Source: Homalodisca vitripennis
Taxonomy: Eukaryota > Arthropoda > Insecta > Hemiptera > Cicadellidae
Length of the DNA stretch: 64,000 nucleotides
Assembly: GCF_021130785.1 (NCBI RefSeq)
Contig: NC_060213.1
Coordinates: 68,463,001-68,527,000 of the forward strand
Direction: 5' to 3'
Part shown: piece after piece, positions 1 to 11,420 of the stretch
Layout of the letters: every line of letters begins with the position of its first letter
How positions within the stretch are numbered: position 1 is the stretch's first letter
Notes under the pieces: generated by a model
Told to the model about the DNA's origin: nothing
Database searches by the model: none
Seen by the model: only the letters and a program-made list of their open reading frames with translations
Program-made: the position numbers and the translations under genes

Positions 1-240
1 GAAAAATTAACTTTGGAAGATAAAGAATGTCTTAAATGTAAAGAAACTAAAAAAATTTCAGAGTTTAATAGTGATCACTATAGTAGAGATAAGAAAGACT
101 CATATTGTAAAGATTGTGTAAAGAAGAATCACCATAGATTATATTATGAAGATACTCAATGTGAATGTGGAAGAACTATAAAATGGTTAAATAATTATCA
201 AAAACATTTACAAACAAAATATCATAAGTTAAGAGTTTAA
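1..240 (+). CDS. Viral zinc-finger protein, 5' end outside window
   Basis: The frame is open from base 1 and no start is seen, so the N-terminus lies left of the window. About 79 residues remain. Visible are a CLKC pair, a YCKDC pair about 30 residues later (a treble-clef-like layout), then CECGR and a C-terminal KHLQTKYHK stretch that looks like the second half of a C2H2-type finger. The protein is Lys-rich and probably binds nucleic acid; no specific role can be given. The next gene is a diverged tandem copy. Small Cys-rich proteins with a CECG...HLxTxxH tail are common in insect and algal large DNA viruses, which is general knowledge and not a search result. A TTG at 13 is not a credible start because the homologous residues continue upstream of it. 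Confidence 0.65.
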   Translation, partial: EKLTLEDKECLKCKETKKISEFNSDHYSRDKKDSYCKDCVKKNHHRLYYEDTQCECGRTIKWLNNYQKHLQTKYHKLRV

Positions 241-256
241 CATTTTCATCGTGTAA

Positions 257-277
257 TAATTTTTTCTATATAAATGG
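257..277 (+). promoter_or_regulatory. TAAATGG late-type promoter, zinc-finger gene 2
   Basis: The T-run reads TTTTTTCTATATAAATGG, with the start codon inside the motif. It matches the other TAAATGG starts in this element. Confidence 0.5.
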
Positions 278-609
278 AGTCTCAAAAGAAATGTACAAAG
301 TGTCAAGAAGAGAATAGAAAAGACTGTTATTGTAAGGAATTATACGTTAAAATGAACAAATTAACTTTAGAAGAGAAAAAGTGTTACTTTTGTAAAGAAA
401 TTAAAAATATTTCTGAATTTAATAACTGGCAGTATAGTAAAGATAGAAAAGATGCTTTTTGCAAAGATTGTGCTAAAAAAATTTTCAGCGAAAGTTATAA
501 AAACGAAATGCCTTGTGAATATGAAAAAAGAATTCTACAATGGTTACCTAGTTATGCTAAACATTTACAAACAAAATATAATAAATCGAGAGTTTTTAGT
601 AAAATTTAG
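274..609 (+). CDS. Viral zinc-finger protein, tandem paralogue
   Basis: This 111-residue protein is a diverged copy of the preceding one. Both share the order LTLE, a C-x2-C pair, ISEFN, S-x-D, FCKDC or YCKDC, and KHLQTKY. It has an extra N-terminal segment with another CTKC pair. The last finger has lost a cysteine: where the first copy reads CECGR this one reads CEYEK, so that site is probably inactive. The ATG at 274 sits in TATAAATGG, the start motif used across this element, which decides the start. The 3' end overlaps the end of the convergent BRO gene by about 14 bases. Function is unknown; nucleic-acid binding is inferred only from the cysteine pairs. Confidence 0.7.
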   Translation: MESQKKCTKCQEENRKDCYCKELYVKMNKLTLEEKKCYFCKEIKNISEFNNWQYSKDRKDAFCKDCAKKIFSESYKNEMPCEYEKRILQWLPSYAKHLQTKYNKSRVFSKI

Positions 610-1405
610 AAACATTTTCATCGTGTAATTTAGATATTCTATAAATCAGTCGAGATTCTGCCATATTTGTAGTAAAATGATTTCCGTTGTATAAAATATT
701 CAAAGATTCTTTCATTTGGTTATACAGATTGATAGAATTTGGTTCGTCATCAATGAACAAAATCTCTAATTCAGGATATTTTATTTTTAGATGTTTTAAT
801 CGGTTTGGTATTTCTCGTTTCTGAGCTCTGATAACGTAATAAGGATATTCCCACATGTGATTCTTCTTAATTAACACAAAAACATGGTGTTTTTTCTTAT
901 CAAAATCTTTACATACCATATCTCTCTTCATTAATTCCATTCGCAATTCTTGATTCTCTATTTTCAAGGATTTCATTTGACCTGAAATTTGTAACTGTTT
1001 TATTTCATCTTTTAACTGCTTATTTTCGTTTTTGAGTTTGTACTCACCATATTTTCTAATGGAAGGTAATACTTCTTTCGTAACCTAATTTTTAAACAAT
1101 TTCGCTTCTGGTTTATGCGATCTCAAAATTAAAGAATAAAGTCCAGATTCATTAACGAAAACAGTGTTATTTTGGAAGTTTGAAGGTAAGCTATTTATAG
1201 CCCCCCTTATATTTAGATTAAAATAGAAGTTTTTATCATCTTCGTCAACGTTTATTCTGATCGTTTGCATAGTATTTTCATATTCTAGAATTTTTGCTAC
1301 GTCTTTAGCCTTAAACCAGATCACATTGTTTTCGTCAACAATCGTAAAGATATGTTTGTTATTGAATTTTAGTTGATTATTGAGTAGGTCTACAACTGAC
1401 TCCAT
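596..1405 (-). pseudogene. bro: BRO-family protein with one in-frame stop
   Basis: This is a baculovirus-repeated-ORF (BRO) family gene, a group of DNA-binding proteins thought to modulate host or viral transcription and replication. The N-terminal ~106 residues form a BRO-N domain, with FTIVDENNVIWFKAKDVAKI, VDEDDK and VNESGLYSLILRS visible. A TAG (plus-strand 1085-1087) interrupts it after EAKLFKN. The same frame then continues with VTKEVLPSIRKYGEYKL, a Lys/Glu/Gln coiled coil, and a C-terminal domain from about codon 155 (FVLIKKN, YPYYVIRAQKR, LKHLKIKYPELEIL) like the C-terminal domain of BRO proteins in insect large DNA viruses. The stop sits where BRO-N proteins, as I remember them, carry Trp (TGG to TAG is one change). 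The start lies in CTATCTAAATGGAG. If the stop is read through, the product is about 269 residues. Confidence 0.8.
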
Positions 1406-1420
1406 TTAGATAGAAATAAA
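1403..1420 (-). promoter_or_regulatory. TAAATGG late-type promoter, BRO gene
   Basis: Read on the minus strand this is TTTCTATCTAAATGG, so the shared start motif is also used on the reverse strand. Confidence 0.5.
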
Positions 1421-1439
1421 ATTTAACTAGTAATTTTTA

Positions 1440-1588
1440 TTTCAGTATAAAGTCCAGATTCATTGATAAAAACAGGGTCAGGATGAAGATTGTTAAGGGG
1501 TCTATGGGATAGACTCTTGTAATTTATACATTCAAAAGTTGTTTTCTTGAAAATTTGAAGGTAAGAACGATTCGTTCCCCCCCTTGAT
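1440..1588 (-). pseudogene. Decayed fragment of a second BRO-N domain
   Basis: The minus strand still reads GNESFLPSNFQENN followed, after a damaged stretch, by VFINESGLYT. Both pieces match the LPSNFQNN and VFVNESGLYS region of the neighbouring BRO gene. At DNA level aaagtccagattcatt is shared with the BRO gene at about 1140, and both copies carry a C-run of 6-7 bases at the same place. Several stops and a frameshift rule out function. It is the remnant of a tandem BRO copy squeezed between BRO and the minor capsid gene. Confidence 0.6.
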
Positions 1589-1591
1589 TCA

Positions 1592-2325
1592 TCATTCTTT
1601 CGACAATCTTAAATATATTGTTGTTTTACTCTCATTATTTAATAGATTTCCTTCAGAGTCTTGAATAGTCAGAACGATTTTTTGAATTCTTTTAATATTT
1701 TTTCTAATTGGAATATAATCGATTTCATTTGGTTTTTCACTGATTTTTGATCCATAAGCAACATTTGGGAAAAAGTGTACAAAATTTCAGATTCTTTGTG
1801 AAGATGTTCGGTATGATTTTCAAAACTAGGTTCAACGAGATTACAATGTACTTCAATTACATCGAACGGTCTAAATTTTGGCGTTTTATTTCCTAAATAT
1901 ACCTGATTTGGCTCAATAGTTTCTTGAACAAACCCTAATAAATCTACAATAATTGCTGAAAACATTATTCTTACTGGTGATTTTATTTGAATTTTATTAG
2001 AGAGATAATTTTTTTGCATTTCAAACTTGTTTTCGTCAAAGTTTAAAGATTTATCTGATTGTTTGAATGTTTTCAGATAATTTTTAAGGGAATTTTTTAT
2101 TTGATCGAAAGTATAATATCCTTTGTTTAAACCATAATATTTTGTTATGTTCTTCTCACTAAATCCTATACAATAAGGAGAACTTTCACTAATATTTATT
2201 ACAAAATTGTCAGAATAAAAACCGCTTAAACCGATAAAATAATTTGATTCTTCCTCTAAGTGTATAGGATGTTCCAAGTTTAAAACTAATTTAGAGCTTT
2301 CTGAAGTCAACTTGAACAGCTTCAT
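1592..2325 (-). pseudogene. Minor capsid (penton-like) protein, frameshifted
   Basis: This is probably the Polinton/adintovirus minor capsid protein, a single jelly-roll protein at capsid vertices. The N-terminal part has LEEESNYFIGLSGFYS, then GYYTFDQI, then a segment ending VDLLGF, and VIEVHCNLVEPSF, an order I recognise from Polinton minor capsid proteins. The frame open from 2325 runs off into unrelated residues after ILYTF and stops at 1669. One frame over, the same strand carries a conserved-looking end (PNVAYGSKISE, IYLRL) down to a stop at 1592. One T appears to be missing from a five-base T run (plus-strand A run 1770-1774). It is divergent to the ATPase with only 40 bases between starts. 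Its start lacks the TAAATGG motif. A sequencing error in the homopolymer cannot be excluded. Confidence 0.65.
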
Positions 2326-2349
2326 TTTCGCAAGCGTTGCTTCAAGATG

Positions 2350-2369
2350 AAAATCTTCTATTTAAATGG
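2350..2369 (+). promoter_or_regulatory. TAAATGG late-type promoter, ATPase
   Basis: It reads AAATCTTCTATTTAAATGG and overlaps the ATG at 2366. It lies in the short divergent gap shared with the minor capsid gene. Confidence 0.5.
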
Positions 2370-2963
2370 AGAAATTTTTAAAGCAAAAAGATCAGATAAA
2401 ACTTTAAACGTTTGAAGAAAATAAGAAAGATCAACCAATCAGATTGTTAATTGTTGGTTCAAGTGGATGTGGAAAAACAACTTTATTATTGAATTTTATC
2501 TACAATAGGTTGATTCCTTATTCCAATTTGTATGTTTTTAGTAAATCTTTAGAACAAGACGCCTATAAAAAATTACAAGAAAGATTTGAAAATATTGAGA
2601 AAAACTTAAACAAAAAAATATCACATTTTTTATAATGCTTCTGAGGACATAGTTCCGTTAAGCGAATGTAAACCCAATTCGTTAATCGTTTTTGATGATT
2701 GTATTTTGGAAAATCAGGACGTTATTAAGGAATATTTCGTAATGTCTCGTCACAAAAACATATCTTGTATCTATCTTTCCCAATGCTTTTCAAAGGTTGA
2801 TAAACAAGTTATAAGAAATAACCTGAATATGTTGTGTATTTTTAAGCAAGACGATCACTATTCGAGAAAGATTTACAACAATTATGTGGGATCTGATATG
2901 AGTTTTAAAACCACTTTAATGAATTGTGTGATAAAATTTGAAAAGAAGACTATGGATTTTTAA
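2366..2963 (+). pseudogene. A32/FtsK-type genome-packaging ATPase, broken
   Basis: This would drive DNA into preformed capsids. Walker A is VGSSGCGKTT at codons 30-39. Walker B is LIVFDDC, followed by a conserved-looking SRHKNISCIYLSQ segment (sensor region) and a short end at KKTMDF. The span of about 199 codons is close to the small size of Polinton packaging ATPases. Two lesions are visible: a TAA at 2405-2407 twelve codons after the start, and one extra T in the T6 run at 2626-2631, which shifts the frame just before Walker B. The ATG at 2366 lies in TTTAAATGG. No in-frame ATG follows the stop before Walker A; a TTG at 2444 starts inside the core fold. I call it a pseudogene, though homopolymer errors could account for the frameshift. 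Confidence 0.75.
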
Positions 2964-3034
2964 CTATTAATCTAACTTTGAAGCCTAAAAATGGTAAATA
3001 TTTGAATAAATTTTCCAATATAAACGTGTGATAA

Positions 3035-3306
3035 TCTAGTTGTTTTCATGTTTTTACGTTCACGTTTACGTTTCGTGTTCTCGTTTTTACGTTCCACGTT
3101 CACGTTCCACGTTCACGTTCATGTTTCACGTTCATGTTTCACGTTCATGTTTCACGTTCGTGTTTACGTTTCACGTTCATGTTTTACGTTCGTGTTTACG
3201 TTTCACGTTCGTGTTTCACGTTCGTGTTTTACGTTTCACGTTCGTGTTTCACGTTCCACGTTCACGTTTTACGTTCCACGTTCACGTTTTTACGTTCCAC
3301 GTTTCA
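3035..3306 (+). repeat. CACGTT-type degenerate tandem array
   Basis: About 270 bases consist of 6-7 base units that vary around CACGTT, CATGTTT and CGTGTTT, with TTTCACGTTCATG recurring almost exactly. All three forward frames are free of stops for 60-95 codons. That follows from the repeat and is not evidence for a protein: the frames all give low-complexity F/V/H/S/R strings. It lies between the ATPase end and the promoter of the PLA2 gene. Candidate roles are a replication or packaging site or a transcription-factor array; none can be shown here. Confidence 0.85.
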
Positions 3307-3307
3307 A

Positions 3308-3326
3308 AATTTTCCTAAATAAATGG
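3308..3326 (+). promoter_or_regulatory. TAAATGG late-type promoter, PLA2 virion gene
   Basis: It reads AAATTTTCCTAAATAAATGG at the right edge of the tandem array, with the ATG at 3323 inside the motif. Confidence 0.5.
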
Positions 3327-4630
3327 CGAACGTAACTTCTGAAGAAGCGAAAAAACTTGATCAAATAGAAAAGAAATTAATCAAAGAATTTAAAGAACAG
3401 ATTCGAATTGATGAAAAAGAACAAGAATTTATTCAAAAAATTAATCAACCTGTAACTTCTGCAATAAAAAATGTTGAGGGCAAAATTGAAAATGTTTTAA
3501 GCGATAATCAAAATTTAATGAATTTGGTTCCAGTTGTACGACAATTTGCTGATATTTCGATTCCAGAATCTGAGTTTGAATTGCCAAAATTACCATCTTC
3601 AACACCATTTAGACCTCGAATCATTGAAGACTCTACCATAGTTGAACCAATAAGTCCTGGAACAACGGATATAATAATTGGTGAAATTGGTAAAAAATTT
3701 CTTCCTAGAGCAAAGGATGATAAATTTGGTTTGTATTGGGACAGAAAAAAGAAAAGTTTTATGATTGGAAATTTGCCCGTGAATTTTGAGCATAATGATA
3801 TCATTATTAATGAAAAAACATATGAAGGAACTCAAGGTTTATAGAGATTATTAACAGGCACTGATGTTCCAAAAGACGGTTTATATTCTGAAGAAGACTT
3901 GAAAAAGTATACTGAAATTTTATGGAAATCTGATTCAATTTACAAAAATAATGATCCATCAACTAAGAAACCAAAGTCAAGTAAAGGTAAAAAATATCTC
4001 AATTTGATTAAACCAATTTGGGAAAAAAGAATCGAAGGATCAGGTGTGAGAAAATACAGTGATAATAAGATTGAATACAGATATATCGACGATTTGACAA
4101 AACTCGATGGAATTATTAATTATATTTATGCTCAAGAAAAGGCTGGAAACAACAATTTTTTTAACGAAAAGAAAGCGATTAAAGATTTTATTTCGAACAA
4201 ACTTGATGAAATGATTGAAAAACCTGATGGAATTAAATATTTAAAACGAGTTTTGCCGGCAATAAGTTCATCTATGATTGAAGGTAGCGGACTTTTGAAT
4301 GATTTTATCAACAATTTACCTTTTGAATTACACGTACCAACTTATCAGTATCTGGGGCCTGGCACAAAACTCGAAAAAAGACTAAAAAGAGGAGATACTG
4401 GTATAAATAAATTAGATCAAGCTGCTATGGAACACGATATTTTTTATGCAAAACATAGAGACACAAATTCCAGACATATCGCAGATAAAGTTTTGCAAGA
4501 TAAGGCAATGGATAGATTTTTATCAAAAGATGCTAGTTTAGGTGAAAGATTTGTTGCGCTTCCAACAGCTGGAGCAATGTTTTTGAAGAGAAAACTAGGA
4601 ATGGGAATCGAAGAGAACTTGAAATTTTAA
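3323..4630 (+). pseudogene. Virion protein with C-terminal phospholipase A2 domain, one TAG
   Basis: One frame runs from ATG 3323 to TAA 4630, interrupted only by TAG at 3842-3844 after EGTQGL. The N-terminal ~170 residues start with a Lys/Glu coiled coil and end in a FGLYWDRKKKSFMIG and GTQGL region; the second part continues RLLTG, DLKKYTEIL and IKPIWEKR. The C-terminus is a parvovirus-VP1-like PLA2 domain: the calcium loop YLGPG (4349-4363) and the catalytic pair in EHDIFYAKHRD (His 4433-4435, Asp 4436-4438). In parvoviruses this domain breaches endosomal membranes during entry; the same job is inferred here. Related Polinton-type proteins, as I recall, have Trp where the TAG is. A TTG at 3899 opens the downstream frame but is not a likely real start. 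It lies 8 bases ahead of the next gene. Confidence 0.75.
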
Positions 4631-4642
4631 CTATATAAATGG
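4628..4642 (+). promoter_or_regulatory. TAAATGG late-type promoter, basic virion protein
   Basis: CTATATAAATGG fills the 8-base gap after the PLA2 gene stop, so each gene seems to be transcribed from its own site and not as a polycistron. Confidence 0.5.
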
Positions 4643-5088
4643 AGGTGAACGTAAATTTCAGCAAAAATCAGAAAGAAAAAATAAAATCCGCTTTTAAGAA
4701 GAAAATACCCGTTAGTATTCAATTTAAAATAGATCAACTAAAAAATGGCGAAGATAAGATATTTTTAACAAATAGACAATACAATAAACTCGAAAAACAT
4801 AAGAAAAACGATAAAGGTGTCAGAATAGAATTTTCTTATAATCAGTTGAAAGAACTTAAAAATGGTGGACTTTTGAAAGATTTATTAGATTTTGGAGAAA
4901 ATATTCCAGTTGTTAAAAATGTTGTTCCTTATGTTCGTAAAGCTGCTCCAATCGTTAAAAAGGATGTGATTCCTATTGTTCGAAACATTTTAAATTGGTT
5001 AGATAAAGAGTTGGAAGATGTTACAGGATCTGGATTAGATGAAAAAACTTTGAATTACGTGAAATCAAACATTGAAAAAAAAATTTAA
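4639..5088 (+). CDS. Small basic virion protein, adenovirus pX/pVI-like role suspected
   Basis: The 149-residue protein is intact. The N-terminal half shows two similar blocks: VNFSKNQKEKIKSAFKKKI...IQF..QL, then FLTNRQYNKLEKHKK...IEFSYNQL. This internal duplication is typical of a small Polinton-type virion protein. After GGLLKDLLDF the C-terminal ~50 residues are amphipathic and proline-punctuated (IPVVKNVVPYVRKAAPIV, IPIVRNILNWL), which suggests a membrane- or DNA-binding segment released by the viral protease, as with adenovirus pVI/pX. That role is inference. The start in TATAAATGGAGG is well supported. Its last 17 bases overlap the protease frame, across a run of nine A. Confidence 0.7.
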   Translation: MEVNVNFSKNQKEKIKSAFKKKIPVSIQFKIDQLKNGEDKIFLTNRQYNKLEKHKKNDKGVRIEFSYNQLKELKNGGLLKDLLDFGENIPVVKNVVPYVRKAAPIVKKDVIPIVRNILNWLDKELEDVTGSGLDEKTLNYVKSNIEKKI

Positions 5089-5503
5089 ACCTTTAACATT
5101 CGGGGAATTGGAAGAAATCTGCAAAAATATTAAACATTTTAGAGGAATCTTCATGAGAGATACATTACCTGAAAAAGTTAAGAAATTTGAATGTGGAATT
5201 GTGAATTTAGACTCGATTATGGGAAGTGGAACACATTGGATTTGTTATTATAAAAATGATAAGAATGCATATTATTTTGATTCGTATGGAAGAATTGAGG
5301 ACAAACAACCTATAGAATTGATTAAATATTTGAAAAAATCAAGCGTTTATTATAACGATTCTCAAATTCAAGACTACAAAGATCCCCCAATTTGTGGTCA
5401 TTTATGTGTTTTTGTGTTGAATGAACTGAGTAATGGTAAAGATTTTAAAGAAGTTGTTAACAAATTATTGCTTAATAAATATGGATTCACAAAATATTTT
5501 TGA
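5072..5503 (+). CDS. Adenain-like maturation cysteine protease
   Basis: The 143-residue frame has the Polinton/adenovirus protease layout: RGIFMRDTLP near residue 24, catalytic His55 in GTHWICYY, acidic Asp70 in YYFDSYG, and nucleophile Cys108 in PPICGHLCVFVL. This family cleaves virion precursors during capsid maturation. The core is intact. The start is unresolved: the frame opens after a stop at 5060-5062, has no ATG before Met28 (inside the conserved core), and the first 17 bases overlap the preceding gene across nine A (5075-5083). Options are a non-ATG start, frameshifting from the upstream gene at the A run, or loss of an original start; atttaaacc at about 5082 resembles a damaged TTTAAATGG. 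The next gene starts inside its 3' end. Confidence 0.85.
   Translation: MKKKFKPLTFGELEEICKNIKHFRGIFMRDTLPEKVKKFECGIVNLDSIMGSGTHWICYYKNDKNAYYFDSYGRIEDKQPIELIKYLKKSSVYYNDSQIQDYKDPPICGHLCVFVLNELSNGKDFKEVVNKLLLNKYGFTKYF
5470..5484 (+). promoter_or_regulatory. Variant start motif of fibre-like gene
   Basis: CTTAATAAATATGG places the ATG at 5481 two bases after TAAAT, a variant of the usual TAAATGG. It favours this start over a TTG at 5433 that lies inside the protease. Confidence 0.4.
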
Positions 5504-6518
5504 CGTATTTGGTACACAAATTATTCAAAATGTAGATAATAGTTTCAATTTTGATAGTTTGAGAAATGAGTTTGATAACAAGTTAGAAAATTTATTACAA
5601 AACCTTCCAGATTCAGATATGTTTGCTGTCGAGATTGAAGATTTTAAAGCAGAATATGATAACAAACTTGCAAATTTCATGAGTTCAAATGAAGTTGCTG
5701 ATAAAATAAAAACATTGGAAAAAGAAGTTGATGATGGTGTAAAAAAATTATTTACCAATTTAATGTCTCATATCGAAAAAGCTGATGAAATTACTGAAGC
5801 AATCAAAGTTGAAAAGAATTATGTTAGTTTAGCTAATAAGAAAAGAATTGTCGGTGTTCGACCTGGTATTGACAAACATGATGTTGTTGTTAAAGAACAA
5901 ATTTTAAAACCTCTAAAATTATCAGAAAACATCGATATTGTTGATTTACATGATCCGAATGTTAAAAATGCCTTAGATTTTAAAGGAAAAAGAATTAGCG
6001 GTGTTAGTAAAGGAATTAATCCATTTGATGTTGTTGTAATGATTCAATTAGAAGATCCTATTAAAATGTTTAATGAACTAAAACAAAATTATGAGAATCA
6101 TAAACAGCATGTTAAAGATTTTACAACAGAAGTCTATGAAAAACTTGATGAAAGAAGTAAAAGATCAGTAGACGATGTTGGTGAATTACTTGATAAAGTA
6201 AATAAACTAGAAGAAAACTTTAATACATATAAAAATGAAGTTAATGTATTAGTTGGTGAAGTAATTAACAAAATTCTGGAAGATTTTTATACACATTTCA
6301 ATGAGGAAGTAAACTTTTTTAAAGATTTTGATACACGTTTCAATGAGAAAATAACACATAATAATGAATTACTTAAAAGTATAGATGATCGATACTCTTT
6401 ATATCTCGATAAAGTAAATAAACTAAAAGAGAACTTTAATAAATTTAAAGAAGATGTCGATAAAACTTTTGAAAACATCGACAACAGATTTAATGGAGTA
6501 GGTGGTTACGATGACTAA
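5481..6518 (+). CDS. Fibre-like coiled-coil virion protein
   Basis: The 345-residue protein is intact. Two copies of one motif stand out: KRIVGVRPGIDKHDVVV at about residue 120 and KRISGVSKGINPFDVVV at about residue 170. Each has the K-R-I-x-G-V-x-x-G-I-x-x-x-D-V-V-V pattern seen in short beta segments of trimeric viral fibre and tail proteins. The rest is heptad-like Lys/Glu/Asn/Leu sequence. A duplicated unit in the C-terminal half repeats LDKVNKLEENFNTYK and LDKVNKLKENFNKFK, so the protein is probably a long trimeric rod. It lies between protease and capsid genes, so a spike or fibre role is inferred; a receptor-binding head is not obvious. A start at 5433 is possible but would sit deep in the protease and lacks the promoter motif. 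Confidence 0.65.
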   Translation: MDSQNIFDVFGTQIIQNVDNSFNFDSLRNEFDNKLENLLQNLPDSDMFAVEIEDFKAEYDNKLANFMSSNEVADKIKTLEKEVDDGVKKLFTNLMSHIEKADEITEAIKVEKNYVSLANKKRIVGVRPGIDKHDVVVKEQILKPLKLSENIDIVDLHDPNVKNALDFKGKRISGVSKGINPFDVVVMIQLEDPIKMFNELKQNYENHKQHVKDFTTEVYEKLDERSKRSVDDVGELLDKVNKLEENFNTYKNEVNVLVGEVINKILEDFYTHFNEEVNFFKDFDTRFNEKITHNNELLKSIDDRYSLYLDKVNKLKENFNKFKEDVDKTFENIDNRFNGVGGYDD

Positions 6519-6536
6519 TTTTCCTTATATAAATGG
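6518..6536 (+). promoter_or_regulatory. TAAATGG late-type promoter, small zinc-ribbon gene
   Basis: It reads AATTTTCCTTATATAAATGG directly after the fibre stop codon, with the ATG at 6533. Confidence 0.5.
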
Positions 6537-6676
6537 CGCTCATATACTGTGTGAGGTGCAAAGAGAAAACTGCCACAAACGATATAAAATACTATGCAAA
6601 CATTAACGGAGTTAAGAGAATTTCTGGAAAATGTGCTGAATGTAACTCAAAAAAGAGCCAATTTATAAAAACTTGA
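6533..6676 (+). CDS. 47-residue zinc-ribbon protein (DUF5679-like)
   Basis: The gene is short but has clear support: TATAAATGG at the start and two cysteine pairs, CVRC at residues 6-9 and CAEC at 34-37, spaced as in a zinc ribbon, with YYANINGVKRISGKC between them. The layout (Y-C-x2-C near the N-terminus, N-G-x5-G-x-C, C-terminal basic tail) resembles DUF5679, small proteins found in many large DNA viruses. It ends in TGA at 6674-6676. Its role is not known; a zinc ribbon of this size could assist transcription or bind nucleic acid. The base composition matches its neighbours. Confidence 0.65.
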   Translation: MALIYCVRCKEKTATNDIKYYANINGVKRISGKCAECNSKKSQFIKT

Positions 6677-6683
6677 TTTTGAA

Positions 6684-6708
6684 ATTTTTTCTTAATAAAT
6701 AGAGATGG
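6684..6708 (+). promoter_or_regulatory. Variant start motif of repeat-protein gene
   Basis: TTTTTTCTTAATAAATAGAGATGG keeps the T-rich tract and TAAAT but places the ATG six bases further on than the usual form. Confidence 0.35.
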
Positions 6709-7103
6709 CGGGACATTACAGTGCTTTCGATCTTTTTATCATGCAACACGAAAGAGATTTGAAAAAAGAACATTGGGATGACATTTCTCAAAAATATGAA
6801 TTATCCGAAGATATGATGAGATTATACGTAAACAAATTGAATTGGTATAACATTGCTAAATATCAAACTTTATCATCAGAGTTCATTCAAGAAAATATAC
6901 ATTATCAATTAAAAGATCATATGTCTGTTCTTTGTCTCTATCAACACTTGAGTATAAAGTTTTTGGATGAAAATAAAGATACAGTTGATTGGAACAATAT
7001 TATAGATAGCGGTTACTATCCTGTGCAGATTTTATTGAAATATGTGACCGAGATCGCAAAATTTAAGGAAGAGAATCCTGAATATGACGAAGTAGATCAT
7101 TAA
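6705..7103 (+). CDS. Viral W/YQxLS-repeat protein
   Basis: The intact 132-residue protein consists of degenerate ~25-residue repeats: WDDISQKYELSEDMM, WYNIAKYQTLSSEFIQEN, VLCLYQHLSIKFLDEN and WNNIIDSGYYPVQIL. Each follows W-x2-I-x2-Y/Q-x-L-S-x2-F/M. Repeats of this kind occur in proteins of several nucleocytoplasmic large DNA viruses and may form a helical solenoid; no biochemical role is known to me. A related YQDLSTQFI block occurs in the frameshifted gene near 10.9 kb. It starts at ATGGCGGG after a TAAAT-containing leader and is followed by a 120-base gap before the major capsid gene. Confidence 0.65.
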   Translation: MAGHYSAFDLFIMQHERDLKKEHWDDISQKYELSEDMMRLYVNKLNWYNIAKYQTLSSEFIQENIHYQLKDHMSVLCLYQHLSIKFLDENKDTVDWNNIIDSGYYPVQILLKYVTEIAKFKEENPEYDEVDH

Positions 7104-7208
7104 AAATGACTCTAATCTTTTTAATTATTTTACTAAAATTTATATCTTTTCTTATAAAAACGTACATTAGATCGATGAAAAAATGATACATGATGTTTAA
7201 AATTTCTA

Positions 7209-7231
7209 AATTTTCTCTTATTAAATGGCGG
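7209..7231 (+). promoter_or_regulatory. TAAATGG late-type promoter, major capsid gene
   Basis: It reads AAATTTTCTCTTATTAAATGGCGG, overlapping the ATG at 7225. Confidence 0.5.
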
Positions 7232-8418
7232 ACTACAGAAAATATGCTAGTGATATTGAAAGGGCGGAGTTTAAAAATTTCTATCCAATTAGTAAACAAC
7301 ATTTGAATGAACCGAATAAAAGAACTGAGTTTAATATTGATTTTGGAGATAACTTTTGCTCGTCTAACTTCCAGTTTTATATTTCTGGAACTTTAACAAA
7401 TCAAGATGGTCAAGCATATCTTGGAACTGATAATGTTAGATTAATCGATAATTTTATACCGTTTTTATTTTCTAAGATTGAAGTAAGAAAACACAATAAA
7501 TTGATAGAAGAAGTCGAAAACTGTGGCCAATTAAGCACAATTAAAGGAACTATTTCGTATTCAAAAAGTGATGTTATTTCTCAAACTTCTAATGGCTTTG
7601 AATCAGATTTTAAATTTGGTGTTTTTGAAGCAGCTGGAAATTTATCTCATTTTGGATTAGGATTTTTTGAAAATGTTACTATTCCGATCTATAAAGGAGG
7701 ATTTTATCTAAGTTTTATAAGAGCAGAAGACGATGATGTGATTCTGAAGACTGCAACTGGAAATGTTATGCCTGTTGATGGAAAAATAACAATTACAGAT
7801 TTTTTTATTAGAGTTCCAATGATTGATTATAAAACCACGAGTAAAATTAGGTTGATTGATGAAATTACAAAAAGTCAAAACATTATGTTTAATTTTCTAG
7901 ATTGGCAATGTATTGAACAAAAAGGTATTTCCGGAACAACTTATTCGTTCGATATTACAAATATTTATAGAAATATCTTCAATCCCAAGTTCGTTATCAT
8001 TGGTTTTCAAACAGGTAGACAGAATAATCAAGAAAAAAATCCTTCAAAGTTTGATAGTTTGGATGTAAAAAATATCAGAGTAAAATTGAACGGTTCTTAT
8101 TATCCAGATGAATTACAAAACTTAAACATTTCAGGAGGTCTTTTCAGAATCATGTATCAGATGTATCAAGATTTTAAGAAAGTTTACTGTAATAATAAGG
8201 AAATGTATTACAATCCTAAAGAATTTTTAGCGAATAGACCTATTTATGTCATTGATACAACAAAGAGTATGACAAATATTTCTGGTTCAAAGAACGATAT
8301 AATTATCAATATGGATTTTCAAAAAGCTGTTACAAACTCGACATGTTATGTGGTTGTGGTTTCTGAGAAATTTTTAGCCTATGATGTGATTAAGAACGAT
8401 ATTAGAGAAATTCAGTAA
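7225..8418 (+). CDS. Double jelly-roll type major capsid protein
   Basis: The 397-residue frame is intact. The N-terminus (MADYRKYASDIERAEFKNFY, then NIDFGDNFCSSNFQFYISG, DNFIPFLFSKIEVRKHN) and the later IPIYKGGFYLSFIRAEDDD, FLDWQCIEQKGISGTTYSFD and NIYRNIFNP blocks are beta-rich and match my memory of insect Polinton/adintovirus capsid proteins. Such proteins form pseudo-hexameric capsomers in icosahedral capsids. No stop, frameshift or indel is seen, unlike in the ATPase and minor capsid genes. The start is set by TTATTAAATGG. It is the last gene of the left block, and non-viral sequence begins within a few hundred bases after its stop. The length is somewhat short for Polinton capsids in general but fits the insect-type branch as I know it. 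Confidence 0.8.
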   Translation: MADYRKYASDIERAEFKNFYPISKQHLNEPNKRTEFNIDFGDNFCSSNFQFYISGTLTNQDGQAYLGTDNVRLIDNFIPFLFSKIEVRKHNKLIEEVENCGQLSTIKGTISYSKSDVISQTSNGFESDFKFGVFEAAGNLSHFGLGFFENVTIPIYKGGFYLSFIRAEDDDVILKTATGNVMPVDGKITITDFFIRVPMIDYKTTSKIRLIDEITKSQNIMFNFLDWQCIEQKGISGTTYSFDITNIYRNIFNPKFVIIGFQTGRQNNQEKNPSKFDSLDVKNIRVKLNGSYYPDELQNLNISGGLFRIMYQMYQDFKKVYCNNKEMYYNPKEFLANRPIYVIDTTKSMTNISGSKNDIIINMDFQKAVTNSTCYVVVVSEKFLAYDVIKNDIREIQ

Positions 8419-8989
8419 AATTCACGTTATTTTCACTATTATTTATCGGATAATTTTAAAACTTTACAGAATTGTTAAAGACATTGATATAAGTATTCAT
8501 TTTTAATTTCAAAAGAATATCTTAAAAAATGGGGATGATATTAACAAAAAACTATTCCAAGGTCATCTTAAGGGTTGGACCGGAAGTTATGATTTTAAAA
8601 AATACTTTAATATTTACTGATCCTATATACCAAATTTCAGCAAAAAAGCTCCAATAGTTCTCGAGATATAAGAGTTTTAAGATAAGGGATGATTGGGGTA
8701 GTTTTTGAAAATTTTGTTATTTTCATGAAATTTTAAGTTGAACTCGCTTGTTTTTGAAGTTTCAGATTTTTCTGATAATTTTTTTTATTTTTTTATGAAT
8801 ATTAAGAAATAGGGGATGATTTCACCCTTATGGATAAGTTAAGTCGAAAGAGTTAAGTATTTACTATATGTGTACCAAATTTCATTAAAATCGGTTGAGT
8901 GGTTTTTGAAATATAAAATTATTAATAAATTTGTAAACTAGCAATCCTAATTGAACAACTTATATAGCAGAGATATAGCTTATAACTTT
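8419..8989. repeat. Arthropod-type dispersed repeat, two degenerate units
   Basis: No gene is seen. Two related units start with GGGGATGAT at about 8531 and 8813. Each ends in the pattern ATATACCAAATTTCAGCAAAA (8628) or GTGTACCAAATTTCATTAAA (8872), followed by a GTTTTTGA/CGAGATATAA segment. ACCAAATTTCATTAAAATCGG is a string seen widely in arthropod interspersed repeats. This is the first host-like sequence inside the viral region. Confidence 0.5.
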
Positions 8990-8994
8990 CGAGA

Positions 8995-9066
8995 CTCTCC
9001 GTAGCTCAGTTGGTAAGACGCTTGCCTTCAAAGCCTGAGGTTCTGGGTTCAAATCCCAGAGCTTCA
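8995..9066 (+). other. tRNA-like pol III promoter head, not a functional tRNA
   Basis: TAGCTCAGTTGG at 9002-9013 matches a pol III A box and GGTTCAAATCC at 9047-9057 matches a B box. The T stem (CTGGG/CCCAG, 9043-9059) is perfect. The acceptor halves (CTCTCCG and AGCTTCA) do not pair and the D stem is poor, so this is the head of a SINE or a tRNA relic. Confidence 0.6.
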
Positions 9067-9226
9067 GGCGCGCTTTTTATTGAGGAAGACATGGTTGTCG
9101 TTCAGTGGTTGGGGACAAGTCTTTACACGAGTGGCCATAGTGTAATGACTATAGAACAAGCCGAGTAATGACAACTGTGGTTGGCGCGCCATTTGCTTCC
9201 TCACCTTTCCACTTCATTCCTTAATT

Positions 9227-9276
9227 CCTTCTCTTCCTTAATTCGTACATTCCTTCTCTTCCTTAATTCGTTCATT
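9227..9276 (+). repeat. 25-base tandem repeat, two copies
   Basis: CCTTCTCTTCCTTAATTCG plus (T)ACATT or TTCATT is repeated at 9227-9251 and 9252-9276, differing at one base. It lies in the SINE-like insert. Confidence 0.7.
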
Positions 9277-9574
9277 ACATTCATCATTCACATCATTCAT
9301 TAATACAACATTACACTTACAAAACACCCGACACAAATTCCCTAATTGTATCTCTCCATCAACTTCTACACAGTAGTTACCAAAGAAAAATGAGACTTGG
9401 GAACAAAAAAATTCCAGAGTCTAAGACCCGAATTACAGCTCCTAGCCATTAACTTGGTTGGACAGTAGCAGTGCAGGGCCAAGTCTCTAAACAATAGACA
9501 CCGTAGAAGTTGAATGTGATGTGATTCCCCATAGCGCAAACACGCACACTAACAACACTACACCAAAGACACAA

Positions 9575-9835
9575 TCATTCATTTTGTCTTTTACAATAAT
9601 TGATGATGTTCATATTATTCTCTTTCATTCCTTCTAAAACTTCAAAAATATACTCTTTCGCTGATGAAAAATCTCGATTTCTTCCGGAATAATCTTTGTA
9701 ATCGTACACATAATATCCTAAATAGTTGTACAATAGAATGAAATTATTTCTATTTATCTCTGTTGTAGAAATGTAAACACAAACATTTGCGCTGAAAAAT
9801 TTATATCTCGGCAGACTTAGTTCCATAATCTCCAT
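9575..9835 (-). CDS. Small viral protein of unknown function
   Basis: An 86-residue Tyr/Asn-rich protein, supported mainly by its start: read on the minus strand, TTTTTTTATAAATGGAG is the element's standard motif. Visible features are a beta-like N-terminus (YKFFSANVCVYIS), YLGYYVYDYKDY and an amphipathic helix (AKEYIFEVLEGMKENN). No family is recognised. It diverges from the next gene with only 24 bases between start codons, so both promoters share one short AT-rich spacer. Its 3' end abuts the non-viral insert, so the true C-terminus could have been altered by insertion. Confidence 0.5.
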   Translation of the reverse strand: MEIMELSLPRYKFFSANVCVYISTTEINRNNFILLYNYLGYYVYDYKDYSGRNRDFSSAKEYIFEVLEGMKENNMNIINYCKRQNE

Positions 9836-9863
9836 TTATAAAAAAATCTTTTTGTTTAAATGG
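9833..9863. promoter_or_regulatory. Divergent TAAATGG promoter pair
   Basis: The 24-base spacer carries CTTTTTGTTTAAATGG forwards and TTTTTTTATAAATGG backwards, so two late-type initiators sit back to back around one A/T block. Confidence 0.5.
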
Positions 9864-10369
9864 AAGAGTATAATGCCAACTGTTACAAGTGTTCTAATAG
9901 AGGAGAAATTATCGATAAAAGATATTTAGTTTGTAGAGGTTGTAATTTAATTTTGTTAGAAAGACCTAAACCTAAGAAATTTCGAAATAAATTAACACAT
10001 TTGAATAACCTGCTTACAAAATTGCAATATGGAGACAAGAAGCAAACAAAATTTGTTACAGAATTTAGAAAACAGAATAAAAATTTTTACTTATCTCTTG
10101 GAACCATTGACAAAATTATTTTCCTTTTCAAAGAATACATTAGGTTTGTAGGTATCGATACACACGTTTATTATGAAAAGATATTACCTGTATTTTTTCA
10201 TTATCTGGATGTTGAATTTGTTTATGATTTTGAACCAGAAATCCTCGATGATTTTATAGTACATTTGGAGAAATTAAACGAAGAACCTCTTGAAAAGAAT
10301 GCGGTTTTACTCACATTCTCCCCGACTTCTCGAGTGAAGGTTAGCGAATTTCATTTTTTCCGTCTTTAA
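9860..10369 (+). CDS. VLTF-3-like late transcription factor (zinc ribbon)
   Basis: The 169-residue protein begins with a zinc ribbon, C8-x2-C11 and C25-x2-C28 (CYKC, CRGC). It continues with KLTHLNNLLTKLQYG, a helical middle (IDKIIFLFKEYIRFVG), THVYYEKILPVFFHYL and a final acidic helix (LDDFIVHLEKL). The order of ribbon, H-x2-x-L-L-x-x-L-Q helix and Y-Y-x-x-I-L block is that of the VLTF-3 (vaccinia A2) family conserved in nucleocytoplasmic large DNA viruses, where it acts with viral RNA polymerase at late promoters. It starts at TTTAAATGG. The last ~20 residues look divergent and may be worn. The assignment is by motif order only; a general TFIIB-like ribbon protein is the main alternative. 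Confidence 0.55.
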   Translation: MEEYNANCYKCSNRGEIIDKRYLVCRGCNLILLERPKPKKFRNKLTHLNNLLTKLQYGDKKQTKFVTEFRKQNKNFYLSLGTIDKIIFLFKEYIRFVGIDTHVYYEKILPVFFHYLDVEFVYDFEPEILDDFIVHLEKLNEEPLEKNAVLLTFSPTSRVKVSEFHFFRL

Positions 10370-10388
10370 ATTTTTTCTATTTAAATGG
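10368..10388 (+). promoter_or_regulatory. TAAATGG late-type promoter, 101-residue gene
   Basis: It reads TAAATTTTTTCTATTTAAATGG right after the preceding stop, with the ATG at 10385. Confidence 0.5.
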
Positions 10389-10690
10389 AGTTCTTGAAAG
10401 AGTTAAATGATATTGGAGAATGTAAGTTTAAAGAGTATAAGAAGTTAAATGAATTGGAAGAAAGGAAGAAACATAGAATCTTGAATTTGGAGAAAATGAA
10501 AGATAAATTCGGGTTTACAATAATTGCCGAGTTGGAAGATTGTAAAGTACACTTGCCGAACAGATTTTTGACTGTTTTGGATGAAAAAAAGATTAAAGAA
10601 TTAAACAAAAATGAAAAATTACACTTGATTGTTACTGGAAAGAAGACTATAAAAGATAAAGAAATTATAACAATTAACTTTGTAGAATAA
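10385..10690 (+). CDS. Small Polinton-type protein, possible ssDNA-binding
   Basis: The intact 101-residue protein has a charged helical start (LKELNDIGECKFKEYKKLNE), then HRILNLEKMKDKFGF, TIIAELEDCKVHLPNRF and a beta-rich end. The K-x-G-F-T-I-I-A-E-L ... L-P-N-R-F pattern followed by LHLIVTGKK recalls a short protein common in insect Polinton-like elements and in some host-annotated hypothetical proteins. An OB-like fold and single-stranded DNA binding are guesses from its beta content and size. It lies directly behind the VLTF-3-like gene and converges with the next gene, ten bases apart. Confidence 0.65.
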   Translation: MEFLKELNDIGECKFKEYKKLNELEERKKHRILNLEKMKDKFGFTIIAELEDCKVHLPNRFLTVLDEKKIKELNKNEKLHLIVTGKKTIKDKEIITINFVE

Positions 10691-10700
10691 AGTCTTAACT

Positions 10701-11241
10701 CTAAAACTTGCAGTCCCTCCCCACGTCATAGTACTGTTTTGATAACCATAGTTGGTGTCTTTCTTCATAGGAATCACATGGAATATTATCTACAGTAATA
10801 CCTTTTGTTTCACACAAAATGTGGCTATATTCTATAAGAAAAATTCTATAATGCTCTTTAATGAATTGTGTTGATAAATCTTGATACTCACAAAAATTCC
10901 TAAGAAATTCATCAATTAAGTCTTGATTATCTTGAAAGGACGTATAATATGGGAAAAATGTCATAAAAAAACGATGAAAACTCTCTGTTTGTTTATTTTT
11001 TACTTTCTTTTCAATATCTTTCGTAATTATATTAAATATATAATCCCTTATTTTTTTCGTTTTTTTGTGTGTACACGTGTGCAGTTTTCGTTCTTTCTGC
11101 AAAAGACTCTACAAGTTCTTTTAATTCTGTTTCATTTAAAGACGGTATCAACTGTTGTTGAGAATAAACCGGCAATTCACTGAATTCATCTTTGTTGCAC
11201 TGTTTTAATGCTAGAAACTGAAGAGAGCTTGGTGAGTTCAT
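10701..11241 (-). pseudogene. Viral gene of unknown function, frameshifted
   Basis: Two overlapping minus-strand frames form one gene. The 5' part starts at 11241 (MNSPSSLQFLALKQC, LNETELKELVESFAERTKT). The second, stopping at 10701, runs through IRDYIFNIITKDIEKK, SFHRFFMTFFPYYTSF, FCEYQDLSTQFIKEHY and RHQLWLSKQYYD. They switch near the A runs at 11047-11075, so one or two bases were probably lost or gained there. YQDLSTQFI matches the repeat unit of the protein at 6.7-7.1 kb. The start context is TACTAAATAAACAACATG, which lacks the tight TAAATGG form. No enzymatic motif is seen. It is the last recognisable viral gene; sequence beyond 11,270 is host-like. Confidence 0.55.
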
Positions 11242-11420
11242 GTTGTTTATTTAGTAGAAAAGTTTTTTATTAAAGTACAGTATGTTTTTAGTAAAAATGT
11301 TTTAAATTGATTAAATTTTATTAAGATAAATCTTTTATTCGTAGCAGATTTGACAACATTTTACAAAGCACAGCTTAAGAAAGTAGAAGCTCAGATTCGG
11401 TTAATTTTTCATTCCACAGA
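11242..11420. other. Right edge of viral element
   Basis: No gene is present. Viral coding capacity ends at 11,241, and ORF density and base style change to host-like within about 100 bases. No terminal inverted repeat can be identified because the left end of the element is outside the window. Confidence 0.4.

Follow-up and report, generated by a model that had tools for sequence, protein, structure and literature searches.

TAAAT start motifs resembling poxvirus late initiators in one lineage of Polinton-like elements of the leafhopper Homalodisca vitripennis

A Polinton-like element with a common motif at its gene starts

We analyzed a window of 64,000 nucleotides (nt) of the genome of the glassy-winged sharpshooter, Homalodisca vitripennis (contig NC_060213.1, positions 68,463,001 to 68,527,000; assembly of 2.305 Gb). 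The first 11.3 kb or so of the window belong to an integrated Polinton/adintovirus-like element, of which one part is present here; an insertion without element genes interrupts it at about 8.4-9.6 kb. Most genes of the element start at or close to a TAAAT motif (Table 1). The capsid gene encodes the double-jelly-roll protein typical of Adintovirus/Polinton (PF21738, 108 bits in Pfam). Pfam also matches the PLA2 gene (PF08398, 41.8 bits), Bro-N (82.7 bits), DUF3627 (61 bits) and DUF5679 (38.3 bits), and the adenain-like protease frame scores 17.7 bits with PF00770, under the cut-off of 21.3. In the window copy, Bro and PLA2 are each interrupted by a single in-frame stop, and the ATPase gene has lost its continuous frame. 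Among sister copies elsewhere in the genome, a piece of the packaging ATPase in copy L008 matches Pox_A32 (36 bits), copy L018 has a retroviral-type integrase (rve, 46.7 bits, 4e-12), and the copies on contig C1 carry a PolB-like gene of 1310 amino acids (aa) with the polymerase-type motif YMDTDS and without a Pfam polymerase or PDB match.

An earlier, sequence-only reading of this DNA had named ten gene starts that read TAAATGG, and all ten lie exactly where it had placed them (10/10). Counting both strands, positions 1-10700 contain 353 ATGs, of which 11 lie within TAAATGG. The eleventh (3605-3611, minus strand) opens a 55-aa open reading frame (ORF; 3608, minus) antisense inside the PLA2 gene and is probably due to chance. 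Among first-ATG ORFs of this region the motif is found at 10/30 of those of at least 40 aa, 8/22 of at least 60 aa, 8/16 of at least 80 aa and 7/13 of at least 100 aa; the count of 10/30 consists of nine named genes and the antisense ORF, and leaves out 2366, whose frame ends after 13 codons. The host part of the window (11300-64000) has TAAATGG at 1/82 first-ATG ORFs of at least 40 aa, and Markov simulations of order 1-3 place it at 0.5-1.5% of starts. The motif is thus far more frequent at the element's starts than at random ORFs (binomial P 1.5e-11 to 5e-16; hypergeometric P 4e-11, with the antisense ORF included in the count of 10).

When the ten starts are aligned, a T-rich stretch is followed by C at −8 (7/10), T at −7 (10/10), a region of variable bases and TAAATGG. 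The T-rich tract described earlier is real, with 57% T at −16 to −5 compared to a background of 36% (P 1e-5), but it is short: T makes up 46% of −30 to −9 (P 0.004), and the richness is clear over only about 10 nt, as compared to a late-promoter core of about 20 bp lying 5-7 bp upstream. TCTAT, said to precede several starts, does so at four of the ten (274, 1405, 2366 and 10385).

The shorter motif TAAAT lies within −20 to +2 of 13/15 starts in the window, as compared to 7.7% of 22-nt windows and 36/373 ATGs; the two starts that lack it are those of the penton-like gene (2325, minus) and the protease (first ATG 5153). Window and sister copies together yield 17 gene families (zinc-finger, Bro, penton-like, ATPase, PLA2, 4639, protease, 5481, 6533, 6705, capsid, 9835, 9860, 10385, 11241, PolB-like and integrase), of which 12 have TAAATGG and 15 have TAAAT within 20 nt of the start. 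The penton-like start in sister copies L009 and L012 reads TTTAAATA(A/G)CGAAAATG. Over 5072-5100 the protease frame, which lacks an obvious start codon, runs in the +1 frame across the 3' end of gene 4639, next to nine consecutive A (AAAAAAAAATTTAAAC). A programmed frameshift at this junction was considered and dropped on reading, the frames being incompatible with a −1 site.

Table 1. Gene starts of the element in the window and the sequence found at each
Feature	Positions	Strand	Start sequence	Remarks
Zinc-finger-like gene 274-609	257..277	+	TCTATATAAATGG	T-rich tract, then motif at start
Bro-N gene 1405..1085	1402..1420	-	TTTCTATCTAAATGG	Frame continues to 596 past one in-frame stop; Bro-N and DUF3627 are separate pieces
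Penton-like gene	1669..2325	-		TAAAT absent within 20 nt of ATG; labelled by resemblance, no Pfam match over cut-off
Packaging-ATPase gene	2354..2369	+	TCTTCTATTTAAATGG	At start; frame broken here
PLA2 gene 3323-4630	3310..3326	+	TTTTCCTAAATAAATGG	In-frame stop at 3842; PF08398 in second piece
Gene 4639-5088	4622..4642	+	ATTTTAACTATATAAATGG	Starts 8 nt past preceding stop
Adenain-like protease frame	5072..5503	+		Without TAAATGG, without clear start codon
Coiled-coil gene 5481-6518	5473..5484	+	TAATAAATATGG	TAAATA, ATG displaced 2 nt
DUF5679 gene 6533-6676	6519..6536	+	TTTTCCTTATATAAATGG	At start
Gene 6705-7103	6685..6708	+	TTTTTTCTTAATAAATAGAGATGG	TAAATA begins 9 nt upstream of ATG
Double-jelly-roll major capsid gene 7225-8418	7211..7228	+	TTTTCTCTTATTAAATGG	At start
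Gene 9835..9575	9832..9848	-	TTTTTTTATAAATGG	At start
Zinc-ribbon gene 9860-10369	9847..9863	+	TCTTTTTGTTTAAATGG	At start; divergent from 9835
Gene 10385-10690	10371..10388	+	TTTTTTCTATTTAAATGG	At start
Gene from 11241	11239..11262	-	TTTTCTACTAAATAAACAACATG	TAAATA begins 12 nt upstream of ATG; sister copy TTTTCTACTAAATGGCAAACATGAAC

The motif is conserved across sister copies

The pattern TCTATNTAAATGG occurs 15,520 times in the genome (7,553 + 7,967), as compared to 628 times for the reversed pattern. In the contig C1 copies the PolB-like gene starts with TTTTTCTATCTAAATGG (TTTTTTCTATATAAATGG and TTTTCCCTATTTAAATGG in other sublineages), and the integrase start follows the same code (GACATGTAAATGG). 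We compared 25 sublineage pairs whose N-terminal protein sequences are 59-89% identical. Positions −3 to +4 are identical in all 25; agreement over −11 to −1 is 0.64-1.00, and over −45 to −20 it is 0.12-0.62 in 22 pairs and 0.85-1.00 in three.

The C1 loci have 97 ORFs of at least 80 aa, 21 of which carry the bait motif; 12 of the other 76 also start with TAAATGG, and many of those that do not are internal fragments of decayed genes. Capsid copies selected by protein match have TAAATGG in 36/36 cases, with several different flanks; 16 of these were chosen among 102 matches to protein P0014 and 20 from down the list of 141 matches to the capsid piece of copy L020, which is 86% identical to the window capsid. 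In a set of 30 near-identical capsid loci, 29 fit the start pattern, all with TTAAATGG, and one was unmatched. At least 104 capsid copies in the genome are 99-100% identical, one with an inside stop (best 104 of 11,613 first-look candidates scored), and this near-identity points to a recent amplification.

Repeated starts of this kind might also stem from cassettes copied among neighbouring genes and now without function. Some genes are indeed duplicated (there are two zinc-finger copies), and the stretches upstream of 274 and 10385 are 73% alike over 55 nt. However, unrelated genes on both strands have just about 17 nt in common and the flanks diverge between sublineages while the core stays, and we consider such copying highly improbable.

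TAAAT is retained where the start codon has moved

Both starts said to keep TAAAT with a displaced ATG, 5481 and 6705, do so, and we found a third at 11241 (minus). In these three the motif reads TAAATA, with the ATG 2-9 nt further downstream; the poxvirus late initiator has been published as TAAAT(G/A) (PMC5294985). The base at −3 is A, G and A at the three shifted starts and T at all ten overlapping starts. Among sister copies of the 11241 family the ATG slides and TAAAT is kept (TAAATGGCAAACATG versus TAAATAAACAACATG; TAAATGGCAAACATGAAC versus TAAATAAACAACATGAAC), as it does in the PolB-like gene (TTTAAATGG versus TTTAAATATGG). Because TAAAT persists at a distance from the ATG, where position −3 is again a purine, the pattern points to a transcription initiator rather than a translation context, and an initiator would also dictate the T at −3 of the overlapping starts.

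A translation signal that is no promoter, acting as start context or through stop-start coupling, would agree with the G at +4, which favours start recognition, and with the TAA directly 5' of the ATG. T at −3, however, is unfavourable for an animal start codon, two other capsid lineages of this genome (B and C, below) use A or G there, and TAAAT is kept away from the ATG, so that we give this explanation very little credence. Start-codon context as the source of the motif was rejected on the shifted starts and on lineages B and C.

Capsid lineages B and C of this genome lack the motif

The H. vitripennis genome contains three or more capsid lineages that differ in promoter style: lineage A, that of the window, and lineages B and C, found by a search with protein P0041. 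The lineage B capsid is 41% identical to that of the window, and its nine fetched copies are 94-100% identical to H. vitripennis P0041, which is itself encoded at 100% in the genome, except one at 83%. The lineage C capsid (MEKLYIEF...) is 66-67% identical to P0041. None of the 13 capsid starts of these lineages has TAAATG (B 0/9, C 0/4); the sequence at the start is ..CGAGA-ATG in the nine B copies and ..CCAGTG-ATGG in the four C copies, with A or G at −3, and TAAATGG is absent from either strand of 2.05 kb (B) and 2.10 kb (C) around one copy each. Since all 13 starts lack the motif in the same genome, the TAAAT code belongs to lineage A and not to the host, start-codon context or A+T content. 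Host base composition as the cause of the TAAATGG starts is ruled out by the Markov simulations together with these lineages.

In one copy of lineage C, TATATATAA begins 50 nt before the ATG and a TCAGT, which we take to be the arthropod initiator, has its A 16 nt before the ATG, the two being 34 nt apart. This layout is apparently that of an ordinary TATA plus TCAGT.

Which polymerase may read the TAAAT code

We propose, with a probability of roughly 0.6, that TAAAT at the starts of 15/17 families is a poxvirus-type initiator read by a poxvirus-like RNA polymerase that is probably not encoded by the element. The likeness to poxvirus late promoters drawn by the sequence-only reading held up in the tests applied: a T-rich stretch and TAAAT(G/A) at or near the ATG are kept across sublineages and absent in two other lineages. 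Its label "late" is not supported, as the PolB-like and integrase genes carry the same code and nothing separates early from late genes; for the same reason, the restriction of poxvirus late promoters to post-replicative genes is not seen here. Three intergenic gaps are 8, 14 and 15 nt long (the remaining gaps are at least 28 nt), and these short gaps are compatible with gene-by-gene transcription.

The polymerase on vaccinia and entomopoxvirus late promoters starts on the AAA, slips and adds a 5' poly(A) head. Transcripts of lineage A would likewise initiate at the AAA of TAAAT and would then be nearly leaderless or carry a 5' poly(A) head made by slippage, like the late mRNAs of vaccinia and those of yeast linear plasmids. 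With a single signal class at nearly every gene, the element would be expressed together with a helper virus. By analogy with mavirus, which CroV provides with its transcription machinery, a cytoplasmic DNA virus, either entomopoxvirus-like or of another kind with promoters of this type, is predicted to activate lineage A and to supply the machinery.

A host-based alternative is that RNA polymerase II (Pol II) reads the motif as a TATA/initiator hybrid at the start codon, maybe with an element-coded activator, and makes nuclear messages with very short leaders. The elements are chromosomal, close capsid relatives from Cuerna arida and Graphocephala are present in UniProt (entries presumably derived from transcript assemblies), and lineage C of the same genome has its TATA 50 nt and the A of its TCAGT 16 nt before the ATG. 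TATA-directed Pol II initiates about 30 nt downstream, however, so that transcription would start within the coding region, and the start codon of the capsid gene matches that of its closest relative, P0001. An ordinary Pol II promoter would not fit into the three gaps of 8-15 nt. We regard transcription by Pol II as unlikely.

The element might instead bring its own factor in the form of the zinc-ribbon protein of gene 9860, which would be a late factor remotely similar to VLTF3 (A2L) and would guide a borrowed polymerase to TAAAT. One of four family members (P0046) matches Pfam A2L_zn_ribbon (E 0.036, 14.2 bits), the CxxC...CxxC pattern is present, and both genes of the divergent 9835/9860 pair have TAAATGG starts themselves. 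The P0046 score is below the cut-off of 22.9 bits, however, the protein in the window has no Pfam match, its structure model is poor (mean predicted local distance difference test score, pLDDT, of 45) and zinc ribbons are common; such a role is doubtful, and less probable than reading by Pol II. PHROGs returned only matches of unknown function for the 9860 protein (best E 0.0064) and a PDB sequence search nothing relevant. Two annotated H. vitripennis proteins, P0047 and P0048, one of them named splicing factor 3A subunit 2, include pieces of gene 9860, through either gene-model contamination or exonisation.

Several observations weigh against a poxvirus-type initiator read by a helper polymerase. 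Searches of the genome for the poxvirus proteins VLTF3, VLTF1 and RAP94 found none, but the controls were equally silent, which makes these searches uninformative; no RNA polymerase gene was seen among the element proteins scanned in pieces, no dedicated search having been made. The T-rich tract of about 10 nt is shorter than the approximately 20 nt of vaccinia, and the integrase start has little T-richness. The protease lacks the signal, as does the penton-like start in the window. The pairwise conservation scores come mostly from loci picked by motif, and the capsid pair reaches only 0.64 over −11 to −1. A "late" signal on PolB-like and integrase genes would be odd for a self-sufficient virus.

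Other features of the element

Bro genes are common in large DNA viruses of insects. Some copies (L008, L009) have Bro-N genes in tandem, each with its own TAAATGG start, and a Bro-N scan of IMG/VR and GTDB returned a phage contig only. Scans of these databases for DNA relatives were negative with the capsid protein, P0044 and the ATPase, and with the capsid alignment in both databases. An array of ACGTTC/ACGTTT-type repeats with a spacing of 13 and 19 nt lies between the ATPase and PLA2 genes (3048-3310), and a stretch resembling it is found in sister copy L006. Within the insertion, 8996-9072 is tRNA-like by eye, in the manner of a short interspersed nuclear element, and ARAGORN and Rfam give no tRNA there. 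The 2021 paper describing the genome (PMC8496328) uses neither "Maverick" nor "Polinton" in its main text.

Comparison with known systems

Lineage A shares double-jelly-roll capsid, rve integrase and PLA2 genes, and probably the adenain-like gene, with animal adintoviruses and Polintons (group definition in PMC11071296). That definition includes an OTU-like domain on PolB and a chromodomain on the integrase; neither appeared in our Pfam scans of the PolB-like and integrase proteins, and no sensitive search was made. The word "promoter" does not occur in the accessible text of PMC11071296, and lineages B and C are without the TAAAT code. In the literature listings and text passages searched, which covered few subscription papers, neither a TAAAT code of animal Polintons nor a virophage of insects is reported.

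The vaccinia/entomopoxvirus late initiator appears to be the closest functional match to the code of lineage A. In vaccinia, and at the rif gene of the entomopoxvirus DlEPV, late promoters likewise combine a tract rich in T or in A+T with TAAAT(G/A) placed at the start codon (PMC5294985, PMC3061580). Unlike poxviruses, lineage A consists of integrated Polinton-like elements whose scanned proteins include no RNA polymerase; its T tract is shorter, and the signal also stands at PolB-like and integrase genes. Cytoplasmic linear plasmids of yeast (pGKL) have a TAAAN initiator at 12 genes and 5' poly(A) leaders from polymerase slippage (PMC6211774). The yeast plasmids differ in having genes of their own for a pox-like polymerase and a capping enzyme; the same paper says that such genes had not been reported from polintoviruses.

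More tentatively, and with less confidence than in the initiator itself, we suggest that lineage A may be an animal virophage: a Polinton rewired to a pox-type cytoplasmic promoter, living off a poxvirus-like leafhopper helper and multiplied in the sharpshooter genome as an inherited, inducible parasite of this helper. To our knowledge, virophages have been described from protists only. One promoter class for all genes, as in virophages, is approached here with 15/17 families, the protease and penton-like genes being the exceptions. Having lineage A beside code-free lineages in one genome would allow parasitism of larger DNA viruses by animal Polintons to be tested directly, and it bears on how small DNA viruses shift between nuclear and cytoplasmic transcription.

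Mavirus and EMALE04, virophages of Cafeteria, carry the late TCTA motif of CroV, and one of eight EMALE types, type 4, which has TCTA, answers CroV (PMC8547959, PMC10945749). Like lineage A, mavirus/EMALE04 is a Polinton relative with one common AT-flanked promoter motif and with integrated copies of different promoter types per host. Lineage A differs in its metazoan host and its TAAAT initiator, and its helper is a prediction. The mavirus-type TCTA and the lineage A TAAAT each form one signal on replication-type, integration and virion genes, and TCTAT itself is present at 4/10 lineage A starts.

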